Of a stretch of 64,000 nucleotides of DNA, positions 5,549 through 58,436 are shown piece after piece. The stretch is from positions 130,052,648 through 130,116,647 of the forward strand of contig CM061136.1 of NCBI GenBank assembly GCA_030789695.1, in the 5' to 3' direction. Numbering within the stretch: position 1 is the stretch's first letter; the number at the start of each line of letters is the position of its first letter. A program made the translations under genes and the position numbers. The DNA is from Scilla litardierei (Eukaryota > Streptophyta > Magnoliopsida > Asparagales > Asparagaceae). Under the pieces are notes generated by a model. It saw nothing but the letters and a program-made list of their open reading frames with translations, made no database searches and was not told the origin of the DNA.

Positions 5549-5845
5549 GTCGGTCAAAGAAGGATTGGTGACCGCCTAGCTTGGGAACTAGTCGGTCGGT
5601 CGAATAACTGTGACCGACTAAGAGAAAACAGTAACTCGGCTGGGAAGATGATCAATGAACTAGTCGGTTGAAGAACAATGGCTGACCGACTAGATTACAA
5701 TCTAGTCGGTCGAAAGATGTTCTCAGACCGACTAAAGATAAACAGTAACTTCTGAATTATAATCAAAGCCCACTAGTCGGTCCATTAAGGATTGTCGACC
5801 GACTAGATTGAGATCTAGTCGGTTGGTTCTCCTTCTTGAACCAAC
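5549..5845. repeat. 21-bp phased dyad array of S (three blocks of four half-sites)
   Basis: Half-sites GTCGGTC and GACCGAC (with few variants) have centres at 5552, 5573, 5594, 5615; then 5666, 5687, 5708, 5729; then 5779, 5800, 5821, 5842. Spacing is exactly 21 bp within every block, blocks start 113-114 bp apart, and orientation alternates throughout. Spacers are not repeats of one another. The last site has become AACCAAC. The array lies in U3 upstream of the TATA box at 5494-5501. Confidence 0.85.
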
Positions 5846-6149
5846 TAACGTGCACGAAAAGTGTCGATTCGAAGCGCGAATCTTCGGGATGAATTCTAAG
5901 GTTTCTAGGATCAACCTATCGCTAAGATATGATCGATATGAAGCTCGTCACGAGTGACTTACCCCGAGTTCAATGATTCTAAGGAAGAAGCTAGAAGATC
6001 ACATCAAAAGGAATGAAAACGAAAGCTAGGAAATCTCAACGAGATGAATGAAAGAGAGAACTATGGAAATGGAAACCACACAAGGAGAGAACCCACCATC
6101 ACAAGCAAAACACACTGATAATCCAATCATACAAAAACCAGTCGTTACA

Positions 6150-7271
6150 TCGACTCTGCATTCGGTAGATGAATCTTCATCAATCATCTCATATATAACT
6201 CCATATAAATTTTTACCCCTAGCCACTTATGATCATAAGTGTGCTCATCCAAATCGTAATGACTAGTCTAGTCAGACCCTTGTTTTCGTGTCTAGCTTAA
6301 CTTACGTCGGCACTCGGTGTATACACGACACGACGGGTTGGGTTAAGTTTAGACTACATCATATGTAATTAGAAGTTGGTTTCCATAAGGTTGTCATGCC
6401 ATAGCTTTAGTGTGCTCAACAACTATAACATGGAACCTATAGTTGCCAAAACTACAAAATAAGGATGGCTACGATTAATCTTGAAGAAGATTTTTAACGT
6501 ATTAAACTAGATATAATCGATTGTTTCACATAATAACAATTCGCATCCTTGGTCACAACCAGGGATTTGCTAGGCCAGTGTCACTATCCCCAGTAGAGGT
6601 AGGGTGACCCACAACACTAGTCAAAAAACACTAGACCGGATCATGGTCCTTTAAGGATTTGAATTATTTATATGTGTCAACATCGATTAAAATGGCTTCA
6701 TTAAAACTAGTTAATCCTATCAACTAGTTGAATCCTAGAATTCGAAATTATTAGGATTGGTTAATAACTTTTATTAGAATCCTTATCAACTATAAGGATT
6801 TATAGGTTTCAACGTGCTATCCTAATCATGTATTAGGAATTTAATAAATTCAAATTACAACATTTTAAATCATTGCCTTTTTTCAAAATTATTATTAGAA
6901 CAATTAAAATAATAATTGTTGAATGAGGCTACCCTAATCAGGTATTATTAATTTAATTGTTGTAACAATTTTATAGATCATAGCATGTCAATCTAAAAAT
7001 TATCTCATAAGTTTTAGAAAATTTTTAGTGGCTATCGTAAGAGATTTTCTTGTATTATCACATAATATGCAAAAAATAAAATAACCATTAAAAACATCAA
7101 CTAAATTTTATCTCATGAAAATTAGCATGAGAACTTGCAACTTAAAATATGTTTTCAAATTAAGTTACATCCCTTTTTAATAGTTATCTCATAATTATTA
7201 ATATGAACAACAAACTAAAATTTATCTCATAAAGTATTGCATGCAACTTAAAAGATCTATCACATAAATAT
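6150..7271. other. Leader of R between S and A
   Basis: AT-rich non-coding DNA similar to D at 49945-51000 (for example the shared GTGCTCATCCAAA and GACTAGTCTAGTC-like patches near 6240-6270). I see no gene in it. Confidence 0.6.
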
Positions 7272-7276
7272 TAAGC

Positions 7277-10231: not shown

Positions 10232-10355
10232 GCCCTACATTCTATCTATGCATTTTAAATTCATGTATCTTCATCTGTAGTTTGAATTGAAAGCACTTTT
10301 ATTTAAATGTCAGTTTTCATTTACTTAAATAAACTTTCATTTTGATTATATATAG

Positions 10356-10911: not shown

Positions 10912-12634
10912 TGACCGACGCACCGTTTACGGTTTGGGTGCGGTGTCGTCTTACCGCAAGTGCATGGTTAGTGTAGGGTGTGGGTTTATCAAACTCAGGG
11001 AGGTGGATGGCTTGAATGACTACTAGCCTCGCCTAGGTTGTGTGCTAGCTACGCGGATAATGTGGGTGGAAGTGTAGAAATAAAAGAAAGAAATAAAAAG
11101 ACACGAAATGAATCCCCGCTAACACGGGCTAGAGCATTCATGGCACTTGGCATTTGACTTGATCCAGGGTGAGACATTAACCCAAAAGGTGGTACCTAGC
11201 ATCCATGGCCCGATATTCCGGTCGGTGCCAAGTACGCTAGGCCTACCCGGTTCCGGACGGTGGGCATTCTCATGTCCATTAACACCTTCCGCAACCGGGA
11301 GCATTAAGGCCACAATGATAACTCCCAACACTTCGTCCAATCCGTTCCCATGCGCGAGGACTCAATGACTACACTAGGGGTGTGAGCTGTGGCTAGGGAG
11401 TCAACCGCCAAGTTTATTCCCCCTTGGCCCGACGGTCAGAGGCGGTCTTTTTCCCGTCAATGACAATGAAACACCCCAGCGTAACCCTAATGGCCAAATA
11501 GGTCGAATGTGATTTCTAGCAATACATCGAAGCGGATCTTGACTGGACAAGACACCAGACCCCAATCCCCAACACAACTAGTGTATTGCCAAACGAATTG
11601 GACCCAGATTGCTAGAAATCCCCATTGACACATTTCATCGAACACATGCCATGCAACCAAGTCAAACCTAGTTTTCCAAGCATCAATCCTACCCCAACCC
11701 ATATTAGGGTTCATCAAGAGCTACTCAATGGTGGAGAACATAAAAGAAAGCAATAAAATGACAAACACACATTCACCATTGAGCAAAATGAAAACAATAC
11801 AAAACAAAGGAAAATAAGAGAAAGAAATACTTATCTTGAGTTTGAATCTTCAATCCATTACAAGACTTATTGAACAAAAGACCTAATCTAAACTAATCTA
11901 AGTCTCACAAGAGAAAGGGGCAAAAAAGCCCTAAAAACTGAGGAAGATCCCCTTTCAGTCGGCCAACCTCGTGTATTTATAGCCCCACTTCGAAACCCTA
12001 ATGGTTCGGGTCCAAACCCGTAGAAAAATCGCCACCCGATCGGTTGATGAGTCAACCGATCGGGTGAGAGCTTTGAAGATCTTCAACCATCAACCGATCG
12101 GGTGAGAGCTTTGAAGATCTTCAACCGGGCGCACTGCCCGAGCGGTTGGAGAGAGCGGGTCGTCGGTTGAGCTCTCCAGGTCATTTTTTTGGGAGAATCG
12201 GCTACAGATGAACCGATCGGGTGAGATGTCACCCGATCGGTTGGAATTTAGCACATTCAGACAGAGAGTTTCGTCGGTTCACCCGATCGCGGAACCGGTC
12301 GGGTGAGTTGCTACTCTTCTTTAGTTGTCGTCCGGGTAGGATACGCGTGCATCAACCGATCGGGTGGATGTGTCCACCCGATCGGTTGAGGGCTGAAATA
12401 TAGATTTATTTGTCGTTTGGCCCTCTGGATTGCACGTGACTCCTCCCGTTGCTCTAGGGACTCATTATATCTTCTTTTTACGTCCCTAACGCTGGAAATC
12501 TCCTGCATTCGCACAAAGACATGAAGAAAGTGAAAAGATACAAAAAACACAAAAGAACGGGTATGAAACGATGGAAATCAACGGAAAATCACAAAGAAGA
12601 CGTGCGTGAATATATAGAATATAAACGCTCGTCA
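10912..12634 (-). repeat. 3' LTR of B
   Basis: TGACCG..GCTCGTCA in plus orientation. It differs from the other LTR mainly by a duplication of about 39 bp near 12055-12130 (GAGAGCTTTGAAGATCTTCA occurs twice), giving seven CCGATCGG cores instead of six. TATA box (minus) at 11974-11981. Confidence 0.9.
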
Positions 12635-16056: not shown

Positions 16057-17122
16057 AAAACTTGACCTGCACCCCGTTTACGGTTTGGGCACGGTGTCGT
16101 CTTACCGCAAGTGAACGGTAGTGTAGGGTGCAGGTTTATCGAACTCAGGGAGGTGGATGGCTTGAATGGCTACTAGCCTCGTCTAGGTTGTGTGCTAGCT
16201 ACGCGGATAATGTGGGTGGAAGTGTAGAAATAAAAGAAAGAAATAAAAAGACACGAAATGAATCCCCGCTAACACGGGCTAGAGCATTCATGACACTTGG
16301 CATTTGACTTGATCCAGGGTGAGACATTGCCCCAAAAGGTGGTACCTAGCGTCCATGGCCCGATATTCTGGTCGGTACCAAGTACGCTAGGCCTACCGGT
16401 TCCGGACGGTGGGCATTCCCATGTCCATTAACACCTTCTGCAACTGGGAGCATTAAGGCCACAATGATAACTCCCAACACTTCGTCCAATCCGTTCCCAC
16501 GCGCGAGGACTCAATGTCTACACTAGGGGTGTGAGCTGTGGCTAGGGAGTCAACCGCCAAGTTTATTCCCCATTGGCCCGACGGTCAGAGGCGGTCTTTT
16601 TCCCGTCAATGACAATGAAACACCCCCACGTAACCCTAATGGCCAAATAGGTCGAATGTGATTTCTAGCAATACATCGAAGCGGATCTTGACTGGACAAG
16701 ACACCGGACCCCAATCCCCAACACAACTAGTGTATTGCCAAACGAATTGGACCCAGATTGCTAGAAATTCCCATTGACACATTTCATCGAACACATGCCA
16801 TGCAACCAAGTCAAACCTAGTTTTCCAAGCATCAATCCTACCCTAACCCATATTAGGGTTCATCAAGAGCTACTCAATGGTGGAGAACATAAAAGAAAGC
16901 AATAAAAATGACAAACACACATTCACCATTGAGCAAAATGAAAACAATACAAAACAAAGGAAAATAAGAGAAAGAAATACTTATCTTGAGTTTGAATCTT
17001 CAATCCATTACAAGACTTATTGAACAAAAGACCTAATCTAAACTAATCTAAGTCTCACAAGAGAAAGGGGCAAAAAGCCCTAAAAACTGAGGAAGATCCC
17101 CTTTCAGTCGGCCAACCTTGTG

Positions 17123-17130
17123 TATTTATA
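17123..17130 (-). promoter_or_regulatory. TATA box of the B 5' LTR
   Basis: TATAAATA on the minus strand, about 55 bp downstream of the last dyad. The 3' LTR has the same box at 11974-11981. Confidence 0.7.
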
Positions 17131-17184
17131 GCCCCACTTCGAAACCCTAATGGTTCGGGTCCAAACCCGCAGAAAAATCGCCAC

Positions 17185-17495
17185 CCGATCGGTTGTTGAG
17201 TCAACCGATCGGGTGAGAGCTTTGAAGATCTTCAACCGGGCACACTGCCCGAGCGGTTGGAGAGAGCGGGTCGTCGGTTGAGCTCTCCGGGTCATTTTTT
17301 GGGAGAATCGGCTACAGATGAACCGATCGGGTGAGATGTCACCCGATCGGTTGGAATTCAATACATTCAGACAGAGAGTTTCGTCGGTTCACCCGATCGC
17401 GGAACCGGTCGGGTGAGCTGCTACTCTTCTTTAGTTGCCGTCCGGGTAGGATACGCGTGCATCAACCGATCGGGTGGCTGTGTCCACCCGATCGG
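17185..17495. repeat. Paired CCGATCGG dyads in the B LTR
   Basis: Cores have centres at 17188.5 and 17208.5 (20 bp), 17326.5 and 17346.5 (20 bp), and 17469.5 and 17491.5 (22 bp). Within each pair one site is CACCCGATCGGTTG and the other its inverse CAACCGATCGGGTG. A further imperfect pair near 17396 and 17408 is 12 bp apart. The counterpart in the 3' LTR is at about 12035-12390. Confidence 0.85.
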
Positions 17496-17749
17496 TTGAG
17501 GGCTGAAATATGGATTTATTCGTCGTTTGGCCCTCTGGATCGCGCGTGACTCCTCCCGTTGCTCTGAGGACTCATTATATCTTCTTGTTATGTCCCCAAC
17601 GCTGGAAATCTCCTGCATTCGCACAAAGACATGAAGAAAGTGAAAAGATACAAAAAACACGAAAGAACGGGTATGAAACGATGGAAATCAACGGAAAATC
17701 ACAAAGAAGACGTGCGTGAATATATAGAATATAAACACTCGTCATCCCC

Positions 17750-22378: not shown

Positions 22379-23087
22379 TGATGTGTCATTATATTCCACA
22401 TTTTATCTATATGATTACACGTCAAAAATTGCTCAATTACACATTTCATACGCTTTTACGCTCATAATTGGAACTATCATACTTTAAGAGCATTTGGTTG
22501 CATTTCAGGGAATATCGAGCGATTTGGAGTATATTGGAGGAGAGAGCACGTGCGTCGACACCCTAACTCATGAAGCGCCATGTTCGGTGACTCAAAGCTG
22601 CTGGAGAGCAAGAAAGGGACAAGAGAGAAGGGACGAGGAAGAGGAGAAGGAAGAAATCATGGTTCTATGATACCATGACTCATGGATTCCAGGTCGCTCG
22701 ATCGAGCTATGATGCGGCGAAGGAATCGAGCGACCCAAAATGCTAGAAACAGGACATCCGTGCACTGTTTTAAAATATTCAATCACTTGGGATTTTTCAG
22801 TATTTTTATGATATTTTTCCGAGATAGTAGACTTTAAGGCGGTTCCAACGCCACCAAGAACGTGCCAATCGGAGGTCAGATGAGCTCTGGGGAATTTCTG
22901 CAAGCTGATGCTACAGTGCTAAAATCTGTTTTCAGCAATCTACTCGACCGAGCAGGACCCTACTCGAAAGAGTAGAGTGTTGCAGCACTGAAATTCGACT
23001 AAGCAGTAGCCTACTCGACTGAGCAGCTGCCTCTCAGTCGAGCAGCTGCATACTTGACCGAGCAGGGTGCCTACTCGACCGAGCAGA
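22379..23087 (+). repeat. 5' LTR of E, left part
   Basis: It matches 56664-57376 of the 3' LTR, then stops at C's target site GCAGA (23083-23087). Inside is an 11-bp inverted repeat, GGTCGCTCGAT..ATCGAGCGACC at about 22690-22737. Confidence 0.85.
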
Positions 23088-27763: not shown

Positions 27764-29108
27764 TGATCGCTCCGTATTTTACACTTTTTTCCCGCATGTT
27801 TGCATGCCATTTAGATCGCTCAAATCATGTTTTTCACGATATATCGACGATATTGCGATACTTTTCACGATTTGTTGTTTTTGTCGTATTTCAAGAGATT
27901 TGGAGCGATTTGGAGTGATTCCGAGATACACCCTCTCCGGAGTGTCACCGACGACTTCCCCGGGGGGTATTTTGTTATTGGAGAGGAGCGGAAGAAGAAA
28001 GAACGTCGTAGGAGCGACGAGGAGGCAAAAACAAGCTGTTTGGGCATTTTCAGTGTCCCACTCGGCCGAGTGAAGGAGTCACTTGGCCGACCGACGAGAC
28101 CCCGCTCGGCCGACCAGATCGGACACGCTTCATGTGTGCACTCGGTCGAGCATCGGAAGCCACATCGGCCGAGTGACGAAACTCCGTCCGCCCGAGTGGC
28201 ACTCAGACGACGCCCATCAAAAAGAGCCAACTTACTGTTTTTCGTCTGCCTGAGCATCAGAAGACCCACTCGGCCGAGTGGAAATTGCCGACCGCCCGAG
28301 TGAATAGAAGCCATCGGCCGAGTGACGACAACTCACTCGGCCGAGCGACGCCCGAAGTGAAGATTTGGTAGAACTATTGCTAGAATTGCTATTAGGGTTA
28401 GTTTGGGATCGATATACTACGGATAGCTAGGTGTTCATATCGATTGGGATTTGCAAGAGATTGGATCCCAATTCGATAGGAAACCCTAGAAATCCGAATT
28501 GGGTTGAAATTGAGTTTCCGTAGTATCGGTTTGCAAGAGATTGGACCGATACTAGGGTTCTCGGTTGCAATTCCATACCGATACTCGTTTGCAAGAGATT
28601 GGACGGGTAGGAACTATCCCAACCTAGGTCGTGGCCCGAGTTTGCACGAGAGTGGGCTCGGGACGCGATTGAACGATGATGTTGATACTAATGCTAGCTT
28701 GCCTAGGCTAGGGTTTGTAAGAGATTGGACCCAATCCTAGGATAGCTATAGACCGGCAACAGTGCGAGAGCGTGAGCTAGGTTTTACATTCAGTTGCAAC
28801 TAGTTCATCCGAAATTCTACCCTAGCAATTGTGATACCAATGAATCACATTGACGAGATACGGTGAGTAGCGGAGATTCCCTATTCCCTAGGCGTCTTTA
28901 TTTGATTTTATATCTCCATACTTTGTCTGACGATTGTGACAGGATCGCCAAAAGGCAAATTCCCTCTTTTCTGTTCCTATAGCCAGGTTGTTCGGAGCAG
29001 GCACTGTCATACGTCCTCCCTGTGTTTGATAACTCGCTCGCCGCTACACCGTGCGCTTGCGGTAAAACTACACGGTCGCTCTTTTTGGGTTACATTCTGA
29101 AGCGATCA
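27764..29108 (+). repeat. 5' LTR of H, promoter-deleted
   Basis: 1345 bp. Relative to the 3' LTR it lacks 481 bp between two GTGAAGA heptamers (37852-37858 and 38333-38339); one heptamer remains at 28357-28363. The lost part includes the TATA-like box. It has a short extra segment of about 10 bp near 27905. The CGGCCGA array at 28060-28345 remains. Confidence 0.9.
28057..28345. repeat. CACTCGGCCGAGTG dyad array, H 5' LTR
   Basis: Six CGGCCGA cores plus degenerate copies such as CACTCGGTCGAGC. Equivalent to 37554-37935, with several cores mutated, mostly at CpG. Confidence 0.85.
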
Positions 29109-29127: not shown

Positions 29128-29249
29128 AGGGAGGCGATAGTGTTTGATCTTATCACCCTAGCTATTTCTTCTTTCTGTTTTATTTCTTTATTTTTATCTA
29201 ACCCTTCCACTGTGCTAATCATTTCTTTGAAACTCTATTTTCCCATTGC

Positions 29250-30881
29250 ATGTACACGAGATCAACGGCGGACCATGAAGCTATATTATTTGATCCCGAG
29301 ATCGAACGTACTGTGCGGAGAATTAGAGCGGAGAGGAGACAAGATCCGGAAGGGAGGTTTATGACCAACCCGGAAACTGCGGAACAATTGGCGGCAAGAA
29401 TGGCGAAAATCATTTCCATTCGCGATAGGCTTCGGCCTAAGACCTCTTCTACGACCTCGTCCATTGCCATGCCGGAGTTGGCGGCCGACAAGAATTTTGA
29501 GCTGAAGACCGGACTAGTGGTTCTGATGCAGCAGGATCCATTTCATGGGAACGCCCATGAAAATCCTCACTACCACATCCAGCTATTTTTGTCGAAGTGC
29601 GCCACATTTCAGATGACGGGGGTCTCCATCGATGCCATCAGACTGCGCCTCTTCACCTTCACTTTAAAGGATAAAGCTCTTTATTGGTTGAGGACGCAAG
29701 CTGACGGAGTCTTTATCACGTGGGACGAGTTGGTGAGCGCGTTCATTGACAAGTTTTATCCGCCCTCCAAGACGGTAAAGATTAGGAGTGCTCTTATGTC
29801 CTTCAAGCAAGGACCTCAAGAGACACTCTACGAGGCTTGGGAGCGCTTCAAAGATCTGCAGCATCAGTGCCCCCACCATAGCATTGAGGATTGGGAGCTC
29901 GTCCATAGCTTCTACAATGGTCTCCAACCGGGGACCAAGCAGATTATTGATGCCGCGGTAAATGGGGCCATCTTATCGAAGACTCCCGACGAAGCTACGG
30001 CCTTAATTGAGGAGATGGCCTCGAACAATCAACAATGGGGCGACGAGCGAGGACACTCTTCGTCCTCTTTGAAGCCATCTAGCATCTATGAGGCCAAGGC
30101 CGTAGCGGAGCTGACCAACAAGTTCGATTCTCTCCACAAGGTAGTGGAGAGACTGGAGAAATATATCACGGAGCCCCAAGGAGCCGCTTCCACATCCACA
30201 CCAACAAATCAAATGTGTGATTGGCAAGACCAATCCCAAGCTATGTATTCGGGAGGAGAACAAGGAGAGGGATCCTTGGAGCAAGTTCAATACGTCGCGG
30301 GGAACCAAGGATATTGGGCCAATCCGGCCACTAGAAACCATCCCGGTTTCTCCTATGCCAACAATGATGGAGCATTGAACCCCCCGCAACAACCACCTTA
30401 CCAAGCTCGACAACAACAACAACAACAACAACATTATCCACCGAGGGGGCCTCCGCAACAAAATTTCCCCCCAAAGCAACAAGTTGGGCCCTATAGGCCG
30501 CCCGGATACAATCAAGGGTGGAGAAATCCAAACCCTCCACAAGCTCAATAACGTTCCGACTTTGAAGCTAGAGTGGAGGAGTTTATGGCCGAGCAGAAGA
30601 AGACCAACGCTACCTTGAAGGCGGGCCAAGATTCCCTTGCAACTGTTGTAGCCCAAATCTCGGAGCAATTGGCGTTGCTCAATCGAAATACTCAACAATC
30701 GCCGGCTCAACCCGAGCAAAACCCACGGGGCGCCACCGGCCACATCAATGCCGTGGTTGCAGTTACAACTAGAGGCGGGAAGGATACCACTCCCGTCATG
30801 ATTCCAACCGAGGAACCCGTGGAGGAGAATGTAGAGCCAATTGAGCCGGTCGTTAAAGTTGAGAAGGAGAAAGAGCCGTAA
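29250..30881 (+). pseudogene. gag of H (Athila type)
   Basis: A frame of 433 residues begins MYTRSTADHEAILFDPEIER. A Retrotrans_gag-like domain covers about 90-190 (HYHIQLFLSKCATFQMTG, LKDKALYWLRTQ, FIDKFYPPSKT, ETLYEAWERFKDL). The place of the zinc knuckle has MCDWQDQSQAMY: only one cysteine is left. A glutamine- and proline-rich tail follows. An in-frame TAA at 30549-30551 and a second stop at 30879-30881 interrupt the same frame, which continues as EEFMAEQKKTNATLK and VTTRGGK, typical of the segment between Athila gag and protease. The reading then shifts near 31010 into the protease frame. Confidence 0.85.
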
Positions 30882-31013
30882 GAAAAAGAGAAGTCCAGAG
30901 CGGAGCAGCTGCTTGAAGAGAGGCGTTTTATGCCGTCGGTCCCATTCCCTCAGAGGCTTGCTAGAGCAAAGATGGAGAAGCGACTAGCGAAGTTTCTCGA
31001 ATATTTGAGAGGG

Positions 31014-32016
31014 GGTAAGCCTCAATATTCCCTTTCTCGATGCTATCGTTGAGATCCCGACATACGCTAAATTTTTAAAGGATTTGATTTCGGGAAGAAA
31101 GAGGAAGGAGAAAATAATGCTAGCTGAGGAGGGGACTTGGTTCACCAAGAGAGAGAAGGAGCCCGCTAAGTTCAAAGACCCAGGGAGTTTCCGAATTCCT
31201 TGTACCTTAGGCGGCGTCCCTCTACAAAAGGCATTAGTGGACTTAGGGGCTAGTGTTAGCCTCATGCCTCTCTCTATGTTCCAAAGACTAAACACCGGCA
31301 CGGAATTGAAGCCTACCGACATGCGGATACAACTAGCCGATGGTCGGATCACAAGGCCGGTAGGGATAACAGAGGACATCCCGTTACAAGTCCCGGGGGG
31401 CATATGTTTGCCATGTGACTTCGTGATCATGGATGTCAAGGAGGAGGGAGATACGTCGCTAATACTTGGACGCCCGTTCCTCGCCACCGCCGGTGTCATT
31501 GTCGACGTACGAGAAGGAACTCTAATATTGAACGTCGGCAACATCGAGGTGGAGCTTCATATACCCAAGGCAATGAAACACATGCCTTACCATGAGGAGC
31601 TGGACTATATGGACCTCCTTGACGAGGTTATTGAGGAGGCGACCCCCCATTCCATTGGCGCTCTATTCAAGGAAGATTTTGAGGAAGGGCCGGATTTGGG
31701 CCAAGAAGAGAAGATGAATGAATCCCCCGACCCCTCCACCGAATTTGATGAAGGCGACGCTGATGTCGCAAGGATTCGAGAGCTTTGCAAGCTCTCAAAA
31801 TTGAAGTCTCCGAAGAAAGCTCCGCCGATACGGAAATCGGTGTCACCGGTGAAGCTGAGGACCGGAGCAAGCACTAGCTTGGGGGAGCCACCCCCCAACA
31901 CTACCCGAGGCAAAGGAGCACCGAGGGAGAACACGCCGCCGCAACACCCGAATCCAAGTGTTCTTCCCGAAAAATTTGACGGGTGCATACCATATGCACC
32001 CAACATCCCGCAATGA
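31014..32016 (+). pseudogene. Protease of H
   Basis: After the frameshift near 31010 the frame runs through NIPFLDAIVEIPTYAKFLKD to the aspartic protease core LVDLGASVSLMPLSM (D-L-G-A, as usual for Athila), then LILGRPFLATAGVIVDV. The last 130 residues are low-complexity, acidic then proline-rich, and do not resemble reverse transcriptase. RT, RNase H and integrase, about 3 kb in complete Athila elements, are absent; the frame ends 45 bp before the post-pol hairpin. Confidence 0.8.
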
Positions 32017-32079: not shown

Positions 32080-32346
32080 GGTTATCGCTTTATTTTTACT
32101 TTTCCTTTATTTTTGTTTTAGAAATTATTAGTGTTTTGAGTCGTTTGCCCAAAAATTTCGTGATAACGGGTCCTATTTTTCTTTGACAGGAGAGGAGAAC
32201 GAGGTACCTATCATTAGGAGGATGAACAAGGCGACGAGGAGCGCTCCAGGAAGGCGCTCGATGCTTAGGAGGAAGATGAAATCGACTGGAGGAAGAAAAA
32301 CAGAGTTTGGAGCCCAAACGAAGCCAAACAGTAGAAAACAGGGTTC

Positions 32347-32682: not shown

Positions 32683-32695
32683 TCGTAACTTTTTC

Positions 32696-32702
32696 TATAA
32701 AA
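32696..32702 (+). promoter_or_regulatory. TATA box of a putative internal promoter of H
   Basis: TATAAAA 19 bp after the last dyad centre and about 540 bp before the ORF-1-like start. A GC-rich putative leader follows. Confidence 0.6.
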
Positions 32703-32898
32703 GGGGGAGCGGGACAGCACGAATTTCGAAACGACTAAAACGCGAAACCGCCCGACTGTTCGACTCCCCAACACCCCGATCCTCTCCCACTCGCCTGATC
32801 ACTCGCCCGCCGCTGGCGCTCGGCCGACCACCTCCGGCCGACGCCTCCTCCGCCTCGCCCGAGTCGCCGTCAGCGACCACCTCGCCGACCGAGCTCCG

Positions 32899-33238: not shown

Positions 33239-35347
33239 ATGCCGCCCCGGACACGGCCACGGTCGAGGAGAGCTTCCGCCAAGCGGAAGCGGTCGGATGA
33301 GGCTGGCCCCTCCCACGAGGTGGAAGACTCTCCTCCGCCTACACCACCACACCCCGTTCACCCCGCACAGCCTGCAGACCCCGCACACCCCGCACAGCCT
33401 GCAGAGCCCATTCACCCCGCACAGCCACTCCCTGCCGCACCACCACCGCCACCGGCTCCACTTGTCGGGCCACTGGGGATTACGTTCCGAGACGACGCAC
33501 ACCGCGTCGTCTTCGAGCGCATTTCCCAGCGCTCGATTGTACCCTCCAGGTTCGCACACCTTGCTGACCTAGGACGCCTGGGGGTACTTGAGGGGATGCT
33601 CACGTTGTATGACAACGTGGGTTGGCGAGATTTCTTCCAAGTGTCAGCGGACACCTTCGTCCGTCCGACACTTGAGGTGCTTAGTTCTATCGCCCGGACC
33701 GACGAGGGATGCTCGTTTAGGTTCATGGACCGAGAGTGCCAGGTCACTCTCGGTATGATGAGAGCTTTCTTTTCGTGGCCCGATGTCCCCGGGGCCGACC
33801 GTGGTTACGCCCCCACTCACATCCCCCCACCTTCCTTCGATTTCGGCGCTTTTTGGGCCCGGATCACGGGTCTACCTGCTGCCTTTGACCCTAGTAGGGC
33901 CAAGGCCTCGGCCATCGTCCACCCTTGCCTCCGCATAGCTCAGCGCCTTATGGCGACTACTTTTTTGGCGAGATATGAGCCTGGGACGATGTCCACGCCG
34001 GAGCTTTATATGCTCTACGCGATGACGCGCCCCAGAGCTCTATCTAGGGAGGGCGACGAGTTGGTCCACGCCGTCGTGATTGATTTCGCGAGCTGGTTTT
34101 TGGATCGCATCATCGTATCGGTGGGCGCTCGCTCACCGATATGTTGCGGCGGTCTGATCACCCTGCTCGCCGTGATGACCGGCGAGGACTTTTCGGATGA
34201 CCTGTGACGAGCCCCGGGCCCCACTTCACTGTCCATAGACGTCATGGCTCGGATGAAGATGTTACGTCCGCACGGTCAGCGGCATTGGGTTTGGTTGCAC
34301 GGCCCCTACGGTGCGGATTACATGATCCTTCCGAGCCCAGCTCGGACACAGATAGCACCAGCACAGGTGGACTGGCTTCCGGCGATGGATCTCCTGATCC
34401 CCGCCGCCTACGTGCTTGAGGCCGAGGAGGCCAAGCAGACTGAGCAGGCCCATGCTGCACACGCTGCACCCGCTGACCCCGCTGCTCCTGCCGACCCCGT
34501 GGCCCCTCAGCAGCCCGATATTTCTGCTGCTCCCGACACCTCTGTCCACACTTCTGCCGGTGTCGGGAGTACACTCGCTGAGCCCACCTCCACTACCTCC
34601 ACGCCCACCTCCACTACCACCACAGCTGGCCCTCTGTCCGTTGAGCCCGTTTCCTCCACCCTACCCGAGCGCCCACCGACTATAGTTGAGAGCGGAGAGC
34701 CCTCTTTTGCTGCCGTCGTGGAGACCGTGGTTTCCACCTCTGTCTCCACCGCAGCCGTTTTTTCTGAGAGTGTCATGGCGTCTGTCCACACGTCTGTGTC
34801 ACCGACCTCTCTGGCCGCCTCGTCGCCACTTTTATACTCCACTTCCGTTGCTGCTGCCTCCACCTCATACCAGCCTGTGCCCCGGCCTCGCACTGAGGCT
34901 AGGCCCACTCTCGTGAGCACAACACCTTTCCTCCACATGCCTGCTGAGCCTATCACCTACGCCACCCGAGTCCGCCAGCCCCGTCCTGCACATCACAGAC
35001 CGGTGCGTCCCTCTGCACCACCTCCCCCTGACACTGTACTTCAGAGCATTCGTGCTCTCGAGGGGGCGGTGAGTGGCCTCAGAGGTGACCTTAGGACCAT
35101 GTCTGCCACCGTCACCGCTATGGCCAGCCGCTTCGACCTACTACCGGGCATTCACTATTGCCTCACTCAGATTCTCGACCGGCTTCCTCGCGTACCCACA
35201 CCCACCCAGCAGGTACCCACCCCCACTCCTACACACACCCAGCCTGCTTCCACACCCACACCCACACCCACTCAGCAGACTGTTCCCCCGCTGCCACCAC
35301 CACCACCACCGCCTCAGGACGGAGACGGTGCAGCCCCACCCTCTTAG
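33239..35347 (+). pseudogene. ATHILA ORF-1-like (env-position) protein of H, one in-frame stop
   Basis: One frame of about 700 codons, interrupted only by TGA at 34205-34207. The N terminus is basic (MPPRTRPRSRRASAKRKRSD, a likely nuclear signal), then a PAQPADPAHP repeat region. A globular part at about 85-322 has RSIVPSRFAHLADLG, GWRDFFQVSADTFVRPTLEVL and CQVTLGMMRAFFSW, the pattern of the Pfam ATHILA ORF-1 family. After the stop come HGQRHWVWLHGPYGADY and a Ser/Thr/Pro-rich tail (T-T-S-T-P, later T-P-T-P-T-Q). I see no clear signal peptide or transmembrane segment, so an envelope function is not supported. It sits where env-like genes lie in Athila, behind its own array and TATA box. Confidence 0.8.
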
Positions 35348-37268: not shown

Positions 37269-39083
37269 TGATCGCTCCGTATTTTACACTTTTTTCCCGC
37301 ATGTTTGCATGCCATTTAGATCGCTCAAATCATGTTTTTCACGATATATCGACGATATTGCGATACTTTTCACGATTTGTTGTTTTTGTCGTATTTCAGG
37401 AGATTTGGAGCGATTTCGAGATACACCCTCTCCGGAGTGTCACCGACGACTTCCCCGGGGGGTATTTTGTTATTGGAGAGGAGCGGAAGAAGAAAGAACG
37501 TCGTAGGAGCGACGAGGAGGCAAAAACAAGCTGTTTGGGCATTTTCAGTGTCCCACTCGGCCGAGTGAAGGAGTCACTCGGCCGACCGACGAGACCCCGC
37601 TCGGCCGACCAGATCGGACACGCTTCATGTGTGCACTCGGCCGAGCATCGGAAGCCACATCGGCCGAGTGACGAAACTCCGTCCGCCCGAGTGGCACTCA
37701 GACGACGCCCATCAAAAAGAGCCAACTTACTGTTTTTCGTCTGCCTGAGCATCAGAAGAGCCACTCGGCCGAGTGGAAATTACCGACCGCCCGAGTGAAT
37801 AGAAGCCATCGACCGAGTGACGACAACTCACTCGGCCGAGCGACGCCCGAAGTGAAGACCCCCAAGACCCCAGACTTACTGGAAATTCTCAGGGTTTCTC
37901 ACTCGGCCGAGCGACTTTTGTCACTCAGCTGAGTGAGCCGCGCTGCCTGTAGCGTAAATTGCGATTTTCAGGCTGCGCAGGGGCATTTTGGTCACAGTTT
38001 TTTGGGCAGTTTTGGGGGGTATTTAACCCCTGATTCTAACCTAGGTTAGAGAGCTTTTTCCCTTGCTTTTTGCAGCTTTTTAGATTAAACTTTTTAGCTT
38101 TTGATTCTTGTGATTGGAGAGGAGAGAAAAGATTATTTTTGTTGGATTCTTGGAGAACTCTATTGGTTTGTCTCCCTCTTCATTAAAAATCTCATTTTTA
38201 TTACTTATTTGAATATTGTGATGAATTCTATTGCTATTTCAATTGATTATTTTTGCAATTGTGATATGAATTGTGAGTAGTCCTAACGTCTTGGGGCGTG
38301 GGGATGAACCCTACGAGCCCAATTTCCGATTTGTGAAGATTTGGTAGAACTATTGCTAGAATTGCTATTAGGGTTAGTTTGGGATCGATATACTACGGAT
38401 AGCTAGGTGTTCATATCGATTGGGATTTGCAAGAGATTGGATCCCAATTCGATAGGAAACCCTAGAAATCCGAATTGGGTTGAAATTGAGTTTCCGTAGT
38501 ATCGGTTTGCAAGAGATTGGACCGATACTAGGGTTCTCGGTTGCAATTCCATACCGATACTCGTTTGCAAGAGATTGGACGGGTAGGAACTATCCCAACC
38601 TAGGTCGTGGCCTGAGTTTGCACGAGAGTGGGCTCGGGACGCGATTGAACGATGATGTTGATCCTAATGCTAGCTTGCCTAGGCTAGGGTTTGTAAGAGA
38701 TTGGACCCAATCCTAGGATAGCTATAGACCGGCAACAGCGCGAGAGCGTGAGCTAGGTTTTACATTCAGTTGCAACTAGTTCATCCGAAATTCTACCCTA
38801 GCAATTGTGATACCAATGAATCACATTGACGAGATACGGTGAGTAGCGGGGATTCCCTATTCCCTAGGCGTCTTTATTTGATTTTATATCTTCATACTTT
38901 GTCTGACGATTGTGACAGGATCGCCAAAAGGCAAATTCCCTCTTTTCTGTTCCTATAGCCAGGTTGTTCGGAGCAGGCACTGTCATATGTCCTCCCTGTG
39001 TTCGATAACCCGCTCGCCGCTACACCGTGCGCTTGCGGAAAAACTACACGGTCGCTCTTTTGGGTTACATTCTGAAGCGATCA
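37269..39083 (+). repeat. 3' LTR of H
   Basis: 1815 bp. TATTTAA at 38020-38026 is the likely core promoter, in the segment missing from the 5' LTR. GTTTGCAAGAGATTGGA-like phrases recur about five times between 38424 and 38705. Confidence 0.9.
37554..37935. repeat. CACTCGGCCGAGTG dyad array, H 3' LTR
   Basis: Core centres: 37560.5, 37581.5, 37604.5 (21, 23 bp); 37640.5, 37663.5, 37686.5 (23, 23); 37768.5, 37790.5, 37812.5, 37835.5 (22, 22, 23); 37906.5, 37928.5 (22). The last site is CACTCAGCTGAGTG, a changed but still palindromic core. The array ends about 90 bp before TATTTAA. Confidence 0.9.
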
Positions 39084-41639: not shown

Positions 41640-41645
41640 CAAGTG

Positions 41646-41656: not shown

Positions 41657-42202
41657 TGTTGGATATGGACGACATGAATACACCCATGAGGGGATGTATG
41701 AGGGTATACGGACCTCAGATGTCGCGTGCACGAAAGCGTGCACGGAGGGAACCTTTTCTCGTGTGAAAAGGACCACTCGATAAGTGAAAAAAGCCACTCG
41801 ATAAGTGGAAAAAGTCACTTTATAAGTGCATAAAGGCACTTGATAAGTGAATGAAGAAGAGGATAAATGAATGTGCTAATATAGGCTAATAAGCTTATAT
41901 TTAGTTATTTCCTACAATAACTACCCCTAAAGCCTATAAATAGGACCCAAGGGTAAGGCATTCATACTACACTTTCCATGCCATAAGTTTGCATAAGGAA
42001 ACTTATGTTCTTCTTCTCCCTTCCATTAAAATCCTCTTCTAAATAGAGATTTAGGCGGTGAAACGCTGCTTCGATCCTCCGTGACGAAGTACCGATCGTT
42101 GTGGCGAATCCGAGGGTGAAGTTTAGAGACTACGATATCGCATACACAAGCGTAAGTCTATGTTATTTGATCCTAAAATCGTTGTTTTGACAGGATCCTA
42201 CA
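41657..42202 (+). repeat. 3' LTR of C
   Basis: 546 bp, TGTTGGATATGG..GGATCCTACA. TATAAATA at 41935-41942. It carries the U3 dyad array missing from the 5' LTR; over the shared 317 bp the LTRs differ at roughly ten positions. Confidence 0.9.
41774..41849. repeat. 21-bp phased dyad array of C
   Basis: Four copies of CACTYKATAAGTG (inverted repeat CACT..AGTG) start at 41774, 41795, 41816 and 41837, exactly 21 bp apart. The array ends 85 bp before the TATA box. Confidence 0.9.
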
Positions 42203-42207
42203 GCAGA

Positions 42208-44318
42208 CCCTACTCCGTCCGAGCAGGCAGTGCGATGTTTGGGCAATGATTCCATATTTTCTGACGGCTCGACTGAGCAGCCACTTACTTGACCGAGTAG
42301 CTACCTACTCGGTCAGAGTAGACCCTACTCGGACCGAGAAGACAGACCGATGTTTTGGGTGATGGATCCAGACTTCTGACGACTCAACCGATCAGCCAAC
42401 TACTCGACCGAGTCGCCGTGGGCCCAGATTTTAAGTTGCGTCTGGATTTTGGGGATGATTTTGAGAGGGCTTCTGGGGGTTGTTTTGCGAGGGTTTTTGA
42501 GAGAGAGGAAGGGGCAGCTGTCAGTAGGGGCACTTTTGGAGAGTTTTTTAGGTAGTTCTAAGGAGTTTGGGGAGACGATCTTTTTGGGGAGTTAGGCTAC
42601 TCCTTTGTATCAAGATAAGTATTTTTGTCTCTTTAATTCCATTGTTATTTCTTTGTGATTTCTTATTGAATATCTCATTGATGCATGCGTAGTTTTGAGG
42701 AGTATATTGGAGGAGAGAGCGCGTGCTTCGACACCCAAACTCATGAAGTGCCGTGTTCGGTGACTCAAAGCTGCTGGTGAGCAAGTAAGGGGAAAGAAAG
42801 AAGGGACGAGAAAGTGGAGAAAGAAAAGAGCATGGTTCTATGATACCATGACTCATGGATTCCAGGTCGCTCGATCGAGCTATGATGCGGCAAAGGAATC
42901 GAGCGACCCAAAGTGCTGGAAACAGGACAGCCGTATAGTATTTTCAAATCTGCTATCACCTGGGATTTTTCATTATTTCTCTGATATTGTTTCCAGATAG
43001 TAGACTGCAAGATGGTTCCAACGCCACCAAGAACGTGCCAATCGGAGGTCGAATGAGCTCTGGGAAATTTCTGCAAGCTGATGCTGCAGTGCTGAAATCT
43101 GTTTTCAGCAATCTACTCGACCGAGCAGGACCCTACTCGACCGAGCAGAATGCTGCAGCACTGAAATTCAACTTAACAGCAGCCTAGTCGACCGATCAGC
43201 TGCCTCCTCGGCCGAGCAGCTGCATACTCGACCGAGCAGGGTGCCTACTTGACCGAGCAGACCCTACTCGGTCCGAGCAGGCAGTGTGACGTTTGGGCAA
43301 TGATTCCAGATTTTCTAACGGCTCGACCTAGCAGCCACTTACTCGACTGAGCAGCTACCTACTCGGTCCGAGCAGATCCTACTCGGACGGAGCAGACAGA
43401 CCGACGTTTTGGGCGATGGATCCAGACTTCTAACGACTCGACCGAGCAGCCACCTACTCGACCGAGTCGCCGTGGGCCCAGATTTCAAGTTGCGTTCGGA
43501 TTTTGGGGACAATTTTGAGAGGGCTTTTGGGGGTTGTTTTGCGAGGGTTTTTGAGGGAGGAAGGGGCAGTCGTCATTAGGGGCACTTTTAGAGAGTTTTT
43601 AGAAAGTTCTAAGGAGTTTAGGGAGATGACCTTTTTGGGGAGTTAGGCTACGCCATAGGCCCCTCCTTTGCATCAAGATAAGTATTTTTGTCTCTTTAAT
43701 TCCATTTTTTATTTCTTTGTGATTTCTTATTGAATATCTCCTTGATGCATGCGTAGTTCTATCTAGGGCTAATGGATTAGCCCTAGGATTTTAGGATTTA
43801 GATGCAAAGTTGGGATTTTTATGATGCGTTGGGAATAAAAGGGGATGCATTCGAACCACGAGAGTGGTGAGATTATTGTAGATCCCTAATGCATGTACCG
43901 TATGCATCTATCGCGCGAGCAGGGTGAATATGGTATGTTAGATTCATGATGCATAGACACATGAATTCACTTCCTAGATGCTACAACTCCCAATTAAACC
44001 AATGCAACGTAGAAGTCTCAACCAAGCATCGACGTCCGACGGTCCTGCGGCGAGTTCTAAAGCCTTAGCCTTTTAAATTTTATTTCTTTCTTTCTTTGTG
44101 TGGAACCCCTTGTTTGCGATGTTGAGTGACACAACCTTCGCATCCATCACCATTACGACCCTCCATACTCCACATCCACCAATAAACCTTCAAGTCTAAC
44201 TCAACCTAGGAGTAGATAGGTAGTATAGCACCGCTTTCCCATGTTCGATACCCGCTTGCCCCTATACCGTGCACTTGTAGTAAACGACATCATTTTGGAG
44301 TTGATTCCGGGCCGATCA
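42208..44318 (+). repeat. 5' LTR of E, right part, with tandem duplication
   Basis: It resumes at C's TSD. The sequence reaches GATGCATGCGTAGTT at about 42694 and then jumps back to the GAGTATATTGGAGGAGAG block of 22528. The next 1.06 kb (about 42695-43757) repeats 22523-23087 plus 42208-42694. The full 5' LTR is thus about 2.82 kb against 1.77 kb in the 3' LTR. Confidence 0.85.
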
Positions 44319-55124: not shown

Positions 55125-56621
55125 TATTTTATGCTTTCAATAAACACGAATCCTCTCGACAGTGAGAGGACCGTATAGGATTTTATATGCTTTCTTAGTT
55201 TAATAAATTCACCACATATGATGGCTCAATTATCTTCTGCACCCAACCCACTATGTATCATCCATGCCCACCCTTATATTTGGTGCTTATTTCGCCTCTC
55301 TCCCTAATTTTTATGTGATGTTTAAGCTTGGGGGAGAGAAACTATTTTGTTGAGTGGCCCCCCTATCTTGTCGTTGTCCTCTATTTATATCATACACACA
55401 TTGAGGACAATGTGATGTTTAAGCTTGTGGGAGTGCATAGTGCACACACTTTGCTTCATCATGAAACACACTTCGAAATTTCCATATGAACCATGTTCAC
55501 TTCTATATTTATGTCTCGTATGCTTCATTTTCTATGAAATATCGTGGATTTTTTTATGAACTTTGATATATGTTAGATTAGAGTTTGATTCATTGATTAG
55601 TGTATCTTTCTTAATATGCTTTTTCATAGTAGAATCAATAGTTTCACAACCATATTCTCGAAACAGTTAAGCTAAAAATGAATGAATCAAATCTGAAAAT
55701 CATTTGACTCCTGCGTGATTTGATTGATAATTCTATTGCTTCATGGATGTTTAGTGATTCAAAAGATATAGGAAAACCACACGACAACCAAAGTAGTGAT
55801 GATTAGGATTCCTAAAACCGAGCCATGTCTAGATTCTATACTTTTTCTTTTTCTTTTGTGAATAGCCAATAAATGATCTTTGATCATGTTTTGCATTCCA
55901 TCGCGTTTACGTGAGTTTGCAAAAATCCCAAAAAATGCAAAAATCAAACAAATATCCTGGATAAAAGGCCATAGGGGTTCTTCGTAACTCGATGCCCTAA
56001 GGCCGTCTGGTCTGGGATGCATAGGCCGCTTTTTGTATATATTAAGTTATCTCGTGTATATAAAGAAAGAAAAATGTATATGAAATATTCTCATAGCCAA
56101 AAACAATATAAAAGTACAAAAATCACATATCCTTATCTCCATTTCTATATAGAACAACGACATGTCAAAGTTGATGGTTTCTGGAGTCTTGAAATGGTCG
56201 TAGTGTGGTGAGGCCTTACCTTGATTGAATTTCTAACTTCATTCCATGAAGTATAACAAAATACCATCCATGCTTGAAGACGTTTGATCATGGCATATTA
56301 TTTAGAGAATGAGTTGTGGACATTGGTTTCATTTCTGTGAACTTAGTATATTGCACGATAAACTATGATATGATATAACTCTACTCTCATTTTATGACTT
56401 ATCGAGTACATCACATTTATTGAAATCCACGTTATTTTAATTTGAACGAGATTTAATTATTTGTTGTGTATATGTGTTCTAATTTCAAATTGAAGTGTTC
56501 ACGAGATCTTGCATACCTTAGGTTCTTATATTTTCTGAATTTAAGATTGACCCCCTTGTCTCCATTACACACCACCGCCTCACATCTCCATTGTATCCCT
56601 CTCCCGTGTTAGCTTCTTACT
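55125..56621 (+). other. 3' non-coding region of E
   Basis: 1.5 kb without coding features. A first TTTAAGCTTGGGGGAGAG copy lies at about 55321-55338, the hairpin motif about 80 bp later. Confidence 0.6.
55400..55445 (+). promoter_or_regulatory. Conserved ATTGAGG / CTTGGGGGAG / hairpin motif, E copy
   Basis: ATTGAGGACAAT (55400-55411), AGCTTGTGGGA (55422-55432), then GTGCA-TAG-TGCAC (55433-55445), a perfect 5-bp stem. Confidence 0.75.
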
Positions 56622-56663
56622 AGTCTTCCTCGAGGATGAGTAAGAGGTAAGCTTGGAGGATTT
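56622..56663 (+). promoter_or_regulatory. PPT and conserved pre-LTR segment of E
   Basis: TTCCTCGAGGATGAG, then TAAGAGGTAAGCTTGGAGGA and TTT before the LTR; compare H at 37229-37268 and B at 12635-12665 (minus). Confidence 0.85.
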
Positions 56664-58436
56664 TGATGTGTCATTATATTTCACATTTTATCTATATGAT
56701 TACACGTCAAAATGATTGCTCAATTACACATTTCATACGCTTTTACGCTCATAATTGTAACTATCGAACTTTAAGAGCATGTGGCTGTATTTCAGGTAAT
56801 ATCGAGCGATTTGGAGAATATTGAAGGAGAAAGCGCATGCTTCGACACCCGAACTCATGAAGCGCCATGTTCGGTGACTCAAAGCTACTGGGGAGAAAGG
56901 AAGGGGCAAGAGAGAATGGACGAGGAAGAGGAGAACGAAGAAAGAATGGTTCTATGATACCATGACTCATGGATTCCAGGTCGCTCAATCGAGCTATGAT
57001 GCGGCGAAGGAATCGAGCAACCCAAAGTGCTGGAAACCGGACAGCCGTGCACTATTTTCAAATATGCTATCACATGAGATTTTTTAATATTTTTCTGCTA
57101 TTTTTTCCAGATAGTAGACTTCAAGACAGTGCCAACGCCACGAAGAACACACCAATCGAAGGTGGAATGAGCTCTGGCGAATTTCTGTAAGTTGATGCTG
57201 CAGTACTGAAATCTATTTTCAGCAATCTACTCGACTGAGCAGGACCCTACTCGAACGAGCAGAGTGTTGCAGCGCTGAAATTCGACTAAACAAAAGCCTA
57301 CTCGACCGAGCAGCTGTCTACTAGGTCGAGCAGCTGCATACTCGACCGAGCAGGGTGCCTACTCGACCGAGCAGACCCTACTCAGTCCGAGCAGGCAGTG
57401 CGACGTTTAGGCAATGATTCCATATTTTCTGATGGCTCGACTGAGCAACCATTTACTCGACTGAGAAGCTACCTACTCGGTCCGAGCAGACCTTACTTGG
57501 ACCGAGCAGACAAACCGACGTTTTGGATGATGGATCCAGACTTCTGACGACTTGACCGAGTAGCCATCTACTCGACCGAGTCGCCGTAGGCCCAGATTTT
57601 AAGTTCCGTCTGGATTTTGGCGACGATTTTGAGAGGGCTTCTGGGGGTTGTTTTTGCGACGGTTTTTGAGGGAGGAAGGGGCAGCCGTTATTAGGGGGCA
57701 CTTTTGGAGAGTTTTTTAGGGAGTTCTAAGGAGTTTGGGGAGACGATCTTTTTGGGAAGTTAGGCTACGCCATAGGCCCCTCTTTTGTATCAAGATAAGT
57801 ATTGTTGTCTCTTTAATTCCATTTTTTATTTCTTTGTGATTTCTTATTAAATATCTCCTTGATGCATTCGTAGTTCTATCTAGGGATAATGGATTAGCCC
57901 TAGGATTTTAGGATTTAGATGCAAAGTTGGGATTTTTATGATGTGTTAGGAATAAAAGGGGATGCATTCAAACCACGTGAGTGGTGAGATTATTGTAGAT
58001 CCCTAATGCATGTACCATATGCATCTATCGCACGAGCGGGGTGAATATGGTATATTAGATTCATGATGCCTAGACACATGAATTCACTTCCTAGATGCTA
58101 CAACCCCCAATTAAACCAATGCAACGTAGAAGTCTCAACCAAGCATCGACGTCCGACGGTCCTAGCGGCGAGACCTAAAGCCCTAGCCTTTTATATTTTA
58201 TTTCTTTTTTTCTTTGTGTGGAACCCCTTGTTTGCGATGTTGAGTGACACAACCTTCGCATCCATCACCATTACGACCCTCCATACTCCACATTCACCAA
58301 TAAACCTGCAAATCTAACTCAACCTAGGAGTAGATAGGTAGTATAGCACCGCTTCCCCGTGTTTGATACCCGCTTGCCACTATATCTTGCACTTGCGGTA
58401 AACGATATCGTTTTGGAGTTGATTCCGGGCCGATCA
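56664..58436 (+). repeat. 3' LTR of E
   Basis: 1773 bp, TGATGTGTC..GGGCCGATCA, followed by GTTAT (58437-58441). No clear TATA box seen. Confidence 0.9.
57230..57590. repeat. CTCGACCGAG dyad array in the E 3' LTR
   Basis: Ten-base sites start at 57230 and 57250, then 57301, 57321, 57341, 57362 and 57381 (steps 20, 20, 21, 19 bp). More degenerate sites follow to 57590. Counterparts lie in the 5' LTR at 22950-23087, 42208-42415 and 43110-43470. Confidence 0.85.

Follow-up and report, generated by a model that had tools for sequence, protein, structure and literature searches.

Phased palindromic arrays in the long terminal repeats of Scilla litardierei retrotransposons, repeated ahead of an extra 3′ open reading frame, as putative promoter-proximal modules

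Palindromic motifs clustered in the long terminal repeats (LTRs) of plant retrotransposons, upstream of the TATA box, have been described in 13 Sireviruses, and the nine of these that possess an envelope-like gene (ENV) carry the motifs upstream of ENV as well (Bousios et al., 2010; PMC2829016). Hairpin regions of maize are concentrated in the LTRs of Copia elements, and Ty3 elements generally show no clear peak (PMC10760457). Sunflower Athila elements hold an extra open reading frame (ORF) with a Transposase_32 domain and a predicted nuclear signal, whose function is there called unknown (PMC11728184), and Retand elements are reported to have, between pol and the 3′ LTR, tandem repeats particular to each family, and to have antisense ORFs that may bind DNA (PMC11963269). 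The subject here is a stretch of 64,000 nucleotides from Scilla litardierei (the window; GCA_030789695.1, contig CM061136.1, forward-strand positions 130,052,648 to 130,116,647), in which several LTR retrotransposons carry short, dyad-symmetric words repeated about every 21 bp in U3. A preliminary description of the window had proposed that five unrelated LTR families (S, C, H, E, and B) converged on this design and had known no earlier account of it; for the Sireviruses this was wrong, as palindromic repeats have been described there both upstream of TATA and upstream of the envelope-like gene (PMC2829016).

Elements in the window were mapped by self-comparison, LTR-to-LTR comparison, tblastn, and Pfam, and the phase of each array found by word search was tested by counting 9-mer matches, direct and inverted with at most one mismatch, at lags of 19–23 bp against 200 dinucleotide shuffles. 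All five words lie where they had been placed, and they are family-specific, CG-containing dyads present in both copia and gypsy elements, as first proposed. The proposed phasing of about 21 bp is also borne out: every array exceeds the largest value of its shuffles (maxima of 4–9), with 16 matches in S, 29 and 29 in the two B arrays, 27 in C, 22, 52, 9, and 47 in E1, E2, E2a, and E3, and 29, 38, and 42 in H1, H2, and H3. The S array (5547..5847, minus strand) comprises three quartets of TAGTCGGTC/GACCGACTA in alternating orientation at intervals of 23 and 19 bp (mean 21), the B arrays (12034..12387 and 17183..17497, minus strand) consist of inverted pairs of ACCCGATCGGTT/AACCGATCGGGT 20–22 bp apart, and the H word, CACTCGGCCGAGTG, is arrayed in both LTRs of its element (28059..28347 and 37554..37935, plus strand) and in a third place between them. 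The E arrays (22941..23086, 42268..43466, and 57228..57580) and the C array (41774..41849, four sites with a 21-bp period) are likewise on the plus strand. The claimed position upstream of TATA stood for 12 of 16 LTR arrays, in which a TATA-like box follows the last word by no more than about 120 bp; these include S (5494..5502, minus strand), B (11974..11982, minus strand), C (41935..41942, plus strand), and H2 (TATTTAA, 38020..38026, plus strand) in the window and S, H, B, and one K array (locus L003) elsewhere.

The same genome (3.68 Gb in 7266 contigs) was then scanned for generality in 20 stretches of 10 kb, taken at round coordinates on eight contigs regardless of motif, and the genome-wide excess at about 20–23 bp that the preliminary description had named as a check was found. 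Direct 10-mer matches number 526 at lags of 20–24 bp versus 158–296 in most other five-lag bins, with further high values at lags of 40–44 (606) and 55–59 (430), and inverted matches number 474 versus 115–280 in the other bins; the shuffles give 33–38. In 18 of the 20 stretches the count at lags of 19–24 lies above all 40 shuffles, other tandem repeats (L005 and L012) being included; at L005, positions 3000–3600, tandem inverted units of CGCACGACGGGGG...CCCGTCGTGCGC about 22 bp apart lie outside the words considered here. De novo search of the stretches gave a sixth word, K (ACAGTCGACTGT), and at least four phased sites of one of the six words occur in 12 of the 20, against none for the reversed words; two stretches with two phased K sites each (L007 and L009) were left out, and as the words were partly defined on these same stretches the count is a description and no blind test. 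Across the whole genome, the S pair TAGTCGGTC-N14-GACCGACTA is present at 481,387 places and the same pair with gaps of 9–13 bp, summed, at 970 (reversed control 0 for both), the H word at 130,572 places versus one for its reversed control, and the K word at 71,665 versus 144; exact H pairs 21–23 bp apart, the one spacing counted, number 7,553 (control 0). A chance origin was rejected on the shuffles, reversed controls, and genome-wide counts. In viral contigs searched for plant relatives, the H word was seen in 67 stretches, with one palindromic site each, the S pair in one, and the K pair in none.

Spacings between site centers (up to 40 bp, in the window and loci of the same genome, with one mismatch allowed for S and C and three for K, H, B, and E) are narrowly distributed: 23 or 19 bp in 115 of 116 cases for S, with neighboring orientations alternating in 105 of 105, 18–22 bp in 78/83 for K, 21–23 bp in 38/38 for H, 19–22 bp in 23/26 for B (mostly 20 or 22), 20–21 bp in 15/16 for E, and 21 bp in 4/4 for C. 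Runs of four sites follow 23-19-23 in all 32 cases for S and 22-(18 to 20)-22 in 11 of 15 for K, and such quartets recur with a period of 109–116 bp in 24/26 cases for S and 124–126 bp in 7/11 for K. The words are conserved and the sequence around them is not, the information content of S, K, H, E, and B being 1.50–1.92 bits in the cores versus 0.12–0.54 in the flanks; among S loci, with both LTRs of an element counted, the words are 95–96% identical, the 14-bp spacers 43%, and the 10-bp links 68%.

Because the gap is strict with free spacers, the words are conserved over the spacers, and TATA usually lies just downstream, the arrays are likely to be promoter-proximal cis-regulatory modules for a phased, sequence-specific DNA-binding factor. 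We infer protein binding, promoter activity, and, for the S module discussed below, exchange by recombination from the sequence. A dimeric factor would bind each dyad, and neighboring sites two helical turns apart would place the proteins on one face of the DNA, where cooperative binding is possible; occupancy would keep the promoter open and fire both U3 and an internal promoter. The module sits in U3, mostly just upstream of TATA, and elements with an extra 3′ ORF have a second array of the same word ahead of it, probably as an internal promoter. On this reading it is the repeated-motif promoter of Sireviruses, carried here by Sirevirus-like copia, Athila-like gypsy, and chromovirus-type elements; the geometry stays much the same from family to family as the words change, and the S module would have passed between superfamilies. 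Several observations weigh against this reading. The spacing of S alternates between 23 and 19 bp, so that "exactly 21" hinges on the choice of site center, and that of K between 22 and 18–20 bp; gaps between pairs (44–125 bp) are no clear multiples of the helical turn, and the regular quartets of S and K have no counterpart in H and B. Genome-wide, the S phase was measured against the shorter gaps of 9–13 bp, and the exact H pairs are few next to the exact H words. No TATA-like box was found near four of the 16 LTR arrays (E2, E3, and the K arrays of L018 and L002), the absence in E, already noted in the preliminary description, extending over 434 bp after E2 and 420 bp after E3. Copies within one family are also related, and the counts are not independent.

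The arrays occur in a second place as well. All six elements with an extra 3′ ORF whose layout could be resolved carry the word of their LTR again in an array ahead of that ORF, four words being represented; these are the H element of the window and locus J015 (H), L010 (S), L003 and J018 (K), and J019 (B), the L numbers denoting stretches from the same genome and the J numbers joined ones (J015 = L015+L090, J018 = L018+L089, J019 = L092+L093+L019, and J008 = L008+L091). LTR pairs were seen for the window H element, J015, and L010, and L003, J018, and J019 are represented by the 3′ LTR alone. The extra ORF belongs to ATHILA ORF-1 or Transposase_32 in five of the six, that of L003 having no family. 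The window H element (plus strand) runs from its 5′ LTR (27764..29108) through gag (29202..30548, PF03732, 8.8e-21) and protease (31009..32013, PF13650, 5.1e-7) to the internal array (32346..32684), in which the word is identical to that of the LTRs. This array ends 11 bp before TATAAAAG (32696..32703), taken as the TATA box of an internal promoter, itself about 540 bp ahead of an ATHILA ORF-1 reading frame (33239..34204, PF03078, 1.6e-9) that is interrupted by an in-frame stop (34205–34207) and continued, by alignment to J015, at 34208..35344, a part with no Pfam family alone; intact copies exist elsewhere. The 3′ LTR (37269..39083) closes the element, and the target-site duplication (TSD) CCTGC stands at 27759–27763 and 39084–39088.

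J015, with LTRs 99.85% identical over 1314 bp, has the same layout: an LTR with an H array and TATA-like box, a gag-protease ORF of 939 codons, an internal H array, an open extra ORF of 777 codons (733 from the first Met; PF03078, 1.6e-10), and an LTR with an H array. Domain search of its ORFs found no reverse transcriptase (RT) or integrase in J015, which is of the window H type. The copia element L010 (LTRs 99.4% identical over 1092 bp, S array in both) has its third S array after the RNase H end of pol and ahead of a two-frame ORF with Transposase_32 (PF20167, 9e-13); an assignment of L010 to Athila-like elements was rejected because its LTRs enclose ORFs for copia integrase and RNase H. 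In L003 and J018 the order is copia RT, internal K array, extra ORF (PF20167 at 3.3e-11 in J018, just under the curated cut-off), and a further K array taken as the 3′ LTR, the two being 69% alike. In J019 it is internal B array, TATATAAA, an ATHILA ORF broken up by a B element nested within it, and, at the end, a B array with TATA in the 3′ LTR. Array-bearing loci outside this set are L001, L004, L006, L009, an S array at J019 1082–1477, and the H-word and B-word arrays of J008; in J008 a stretch of the H word with TATA (9824–11972) is inserted into an LTR of the K word, and with an array of the B word and its TATA a few kb farther on, three words come together in 10 kb. At C1:252204–263691, S pairs stand at both ends and one between them has the spacer of an L010 internal pair, so that a further copia element of the S type, with its own internal array, probably lies here, outside the six.

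None of five elements without a recognized extra ORF had an internal array; they are the C element of the window, L002, L013 (in which gag, pol, and integrase are the only genes), and two with copia gag alone, L017 and the K element of J008. Nor was one found in the window B element, which has a single long ORF (466 amino acids) of no recognized class. A TATA box soon follows the internal array in three of the six elements (window H, J015, and the B array of J019), and an internal promoter before the extra ORF is probable; near the internal arrays of L010 (S), L003 (K), and L018 (K) no TATA-like box was found, which counts against it.

U3 copies are homogenized by reverse transcription, and an internal copy is not, so that a joint change of word in LTR and internal array would need selection or recombination. 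By best match, the internal spacers of L010 agree with its LTR spacers at 0.60 (0.43 when shuffled, with a maximum of 0.51), which is below the 0.75 of two copia LTRs. In the one pair of copies compared, window H and J015, the ratio of nonsynonymous to synonymous substitution (dN/dS) of the extra ORF is 0.10 over 322 codons and 0.16 over 376 codons, and that of gag is 0.07 over 448 codons. Basic stretches (KRKR, KPKRRAK, KRRRRQ, and SRKRRK) occur in the extra ORFs of the H, S, K, and B types, as would be expected for nuclear proteins. The word is not constant among related elements, being S or K in copia elements with PF20167 ORFs, of which those of L010 and L018 share 44% amino acid identity, and H or B in elements with ATHILA ORFs. 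A homologue search with the H extra ORF scored 8000 candidates, none at an E value of 0.001 or better, and the AlphaFold model of its first part, from a single sequence, has a mean pLDDT of 40.

Two candidates for the phased factor can be weighed. A host transcription factor family, whose paralogues would differ in the word they bind, is a serious contender at somewhat under even chances and is a sub-case of the phased-factor reading. It agrees with the S arrays of L013, in which gag, protease, RT, RNase H, and integrase are present and an extra ORF is missing, and with K arrays in the small gypsy-type element L002 and the gag-only copia element of J008. The S word moreover contains ACCGAC, the DRE/CRT core. 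Sirevirus motifs match stress-factor sites in the PLACE database, according to the account given of them (PMC2829016). The host reading is opposed by the coupling of the word to the array before the extra ORF in all six elements, by the selection on the extra ORF in an element without pol, and by the different words of related elements.

The coupling of LTR and internal words favors a family-specific factor, and the extra ORF (ATHILA ORF-1 or Transposase_32), the natural candidate, may itself encode a sequence-specific transactivator, or a protein that counters silencing, with the phased dyads of its own family as binding sites, a tentative proposal drawn by analogy and given lower odds than the host factor. 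Its product would bind U3 and the site before its own ORF, a self-reinforcing circuit like that of VANC or foamy-virus Tas, and the words would diverge so that each family addresses itself alone. As the S element L013 lacks an extra ORF, the factor, if it is the ORF product, works in trans, and elements without the ORF (the S chromovirus-type element and the small K elements) would parasitize the circuit through the same word. If true, the circuit would explain an open, selected extra ORF in an element without RT and integrase. The arms race over a silencing or activating protein that the preliminary description had raised is possible and is sharpened by these data. The coupling of words across copia and gypsy elements offers a concrete candidate protein–site pair with a prediction for each family, and with about half a million exact phased pairs of the S word alone, the factor of that word would have very many sites.

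That unrelated families arrived independently at a single promoter geometry, as the preliminary description had it, is improbable, and neither their unrelatedness nor their independence was supported. Shared LTR starts and ends and a similar polypurine-tract block place B, E, and H in a single Athila-like gypsy lineage: the first 150 bp of E and H LTRs are 60–62% identical, LTR ends 73–76% (B versus H) and 70–82% (E versus H), and the block common to all three starts CTTCCTCGAGGA(C/T)GAG and finishes GGATTTTGA. S is carried by both superfamilies. L017 is copia (gag 1.9e-25), as domain or homology matches to copia genes also indicate for L010, L003, J018, and J008, and L013 is called chromovirus-type on its gypsy gag, protease, RT (RVT_1), RNase H, and integrase domains, an SH3_Tf2-1 match (5.8e-28), and a chromodomain hit that at 1.7e-4 falls short of its cut-off; the window S LTR and L001 are classed as chromovirus-like because their LTRs resemble those of L013 and L004, not on genes of their own. 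K similarly occurs in the small gypsy-type L002 (gag match 26%, 1e-9 by tblastn; LTR pair present) as well as in the J008 copia element with gag as its only domain.

The S arrays of the two superfamilies share more than their word. Copia and chromovirus-like spacers are 0.66–0.74 alike by best match (L017 versus L013, 0.74; shuffled 0.43, maximum 0.53), versus 0.43–0.45 for shuffled loops overall (maxima 0.51–0.54), and most pairs are alike over about 130 bp upstream of the array, five of six beyond all shuffles. Over the 150 bp upstream, copia L010 and L017 match the window and L001 LTRs at z 11.8–17.0, and L013 matches these two at z 31.8 and 33.5, respectively. Two comparisons speak against a common module: L017 versus L013 is weak (z 6.0; 38 versus a shuffle maximum of 33), and L010 versus L013 lies within the shuffles (z 2.7; 29, maximum 35), the latter being also a point for convergence. 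As spacers and mostly the upstream flank are shared, the S arrays of copia and chromovirus-type LTRs point to one U3 module, inherited or exchanged. Convergence is further favored by the S flanks, which show no similarity to H and B controls (z −0.5 to 1.2), and by spacing patterns in H, B, and E that are unlike those of S and K; the S flanks versus K of the copia element L003 gave z 0.1 to 6.0. It is opposed, besides the single B, E, and H lineage and the shared S spacers and flanks, by TTACTGTT, which is common to some S, K, H, and B arrays and occurs 18 times in array regions versus 0.5 expected (S 12, K 2, H 3, and B 1; a motif found post hoc, with LTR pairs counted double). In four S loci, 8 of 11 near-matches to it lie 14 bp ahead of the next S site, and its distances in the H and K loci examined are 38, 90, and 27. 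Five unrelated families were accordingly rejected on the LTR ends of B, E, and H and the S flank comparison. A U3 module common to superfamilies suggests that promoter modules move between classes of elements.

Slightly less probable still is that the palindromes act as RNA, with transcribed U3 hairpins feeding or evading small-RNA silencing, an idea put forward for the Sireviruses of maize. A length of 21–22 nt is one of the sizes of small RNAs, and S quartets, judged by eye, could form long hairpins. In maize, small RNAs are drawn to the clusters of palindromes in Sirevirus LTRs (Bousios, 2016, cited in PMC10760457). Among 54 S hairpins and 26 links, however, only three double changes in the arms keep pairing, against 21 one-sided changes that break it and 14 one-sided changes to G-U, a tally to which CG decay by methylation may add one-sided changes; the strict phase holds between hairpins as well as within them, and the K and H words are self-palindromic and need no pairing partner. 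RNA pairing as a conserved property was rejected on these S-arm counts. Neutral tandem duplication of a short unit, named in the preliminary description as what would undo the claim, is very improbable overall and was rejected for S, K, H, E, and B, whose words are far more conserved than their spacers and of which S keeps its gap across the genome despite variable spacers, although E holds 115-bp tandem units and the C array, with fairly conserved spacers (1.29 versus 1.86 bits; four sites, small-sample bias of about 0.5), can be a simple duplication and so weakens the case for that family.

The remaining features of the window concern the condition and nesting of these elements. The S LTR (3803..6149, minus strand; TGTAACGAC...GGGGCGTGACA), delimited by alignment to the L013 and L001 LTRs, is probably solo, and its flanks, GTCGA and GTCAA, agree at four of five positions. 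The B element (LTR copies 10923..12634 and 16074..17744, minus strand) sits within another copia element. Its 466-amino-acid ORF (14504–15901, minus strand) has zinc-knuckle matches only below threshold, and an 80.7% copy of it in J019 points to a gag-like protein retained by a short, non-autonomous element. Between 22379 and 58436, H (27764–39083) lies within the C copia element (23088–42202, TSD GCAGA), which lies within an E LTR. This LTR is cut into a left (22379..23087) and a right part (42203..44318, with local 115-bp duplications), a second E copy stands at 56664..58436, and all are on the plus strand. The insertion point of C is inside the E array. One study reports frequent targeting of palindromes by plant LTR elements (PMC6911290). 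The C element retains its 3′ LTR (41657..42202, plus strand), and its 5′ LTR is without most of U3, its array included. The H 5′ LTR copy lacks about 474 bp that in the 3′ copy hold the TATA-like box; 28357–28363 corresponds to 37859–38332, with a short matching sequence at the joint. A GGCC-rich 63-bp tandem repeat occupies the C leader at 23968–24557, a similar GGCC-rich repeat being present at L012 7501–8701, and 45400–46152 and 52514–53167, which lie in LTRs of another element and hold long palindromes of the GGGCGCCC type, show 91% inverted similarity.

Retrotransposons make up large parts of plant genomes. Foamy viruses combine an internal promoter with LTR sites, both serving the accessory transactivator Tas, and human T-cell leukemia virus 1 (HTLV-1) has 21-bp repeats upstream of TATA that serve Tax; these are animal retroviruses, and the likeness to the plant arrays is one of layout. 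The VANDAL transposons offer a parallel for the circuit proposed above: their short motifs stand in non-coding tandem arrays, vary between related elements, and co-evolve with the element-encoded VANC protein that binds them, although these are DNA transposons and phased dyads are not mentioned in the parts of the reports concerned with the motifs (PMC5735166, PMC10398659). DUF1985, the VANC domain, was absent from the extra ORFs: hmmscan at E ≤ 10 gave PF03078 only for the first part of H and PF20167 with DUF6455 for L010, and at E ≤ 0.1 PF20167 for L018, no family for L003, and PF03078 for J015. The sunflower Athila ORFs belong to the same 3′ ORF families (PF20167 and PF03078), with no link to promoter arrays drawn in the account of them (PMC11728184), and the maize Sirevirus palindromes are alike in their cis-region location and are read there through hairpins and small RNAs (PMC10760457). 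Among open-licence PMC papers, no title or abstract beginning reported the phased-palindrome design in gypsy elements, and no retrotransposon paper was found by title for the literal words.

The repeated motifs of Sireviruses remain the closest counterpart. They are likewise family-specific, high-copy palindromes in U3 upstream of TATA and before an additional gene, and their internal copies are described only where the ENV-like gene exists (PMC2829016), just as internal arrays here accompany the extra ORF and are missing without it. S, K, H, B, and E, with about 7–21 sites per LTR array, reach the at least eight copies per element used to recognize Sirevirus motifs, and C, with four per LTR, does not. 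A CGG-CCG core is present in 12 of the 13 Sireviruses (PMC2829016) and, as read from the words, in H (CGGCCG), in B in CCG-CGG order (CCGATCGG), and in S across the inverted pair, whereas K, C, and E are without it. The Sirevirus motifs were reported as specific to that lineage and absent from the other copia elements surveyed, and spacing does not appear in the section on them (PMC2829016), whereas the arrays here are strictly phased. Not all carriers here are Sireviruses, judged by domains rather than an RT tree: H has a gypsy gag, H and B have ATHILA ORF-1, and L013 has gypsy genes. Athila-like gypsy elements and a chromovirus-type element are thus among the carriers, and these gypsy carriers and the strict phase seem to be what is new beyond the repeated-motif promoters of Sireviruses.

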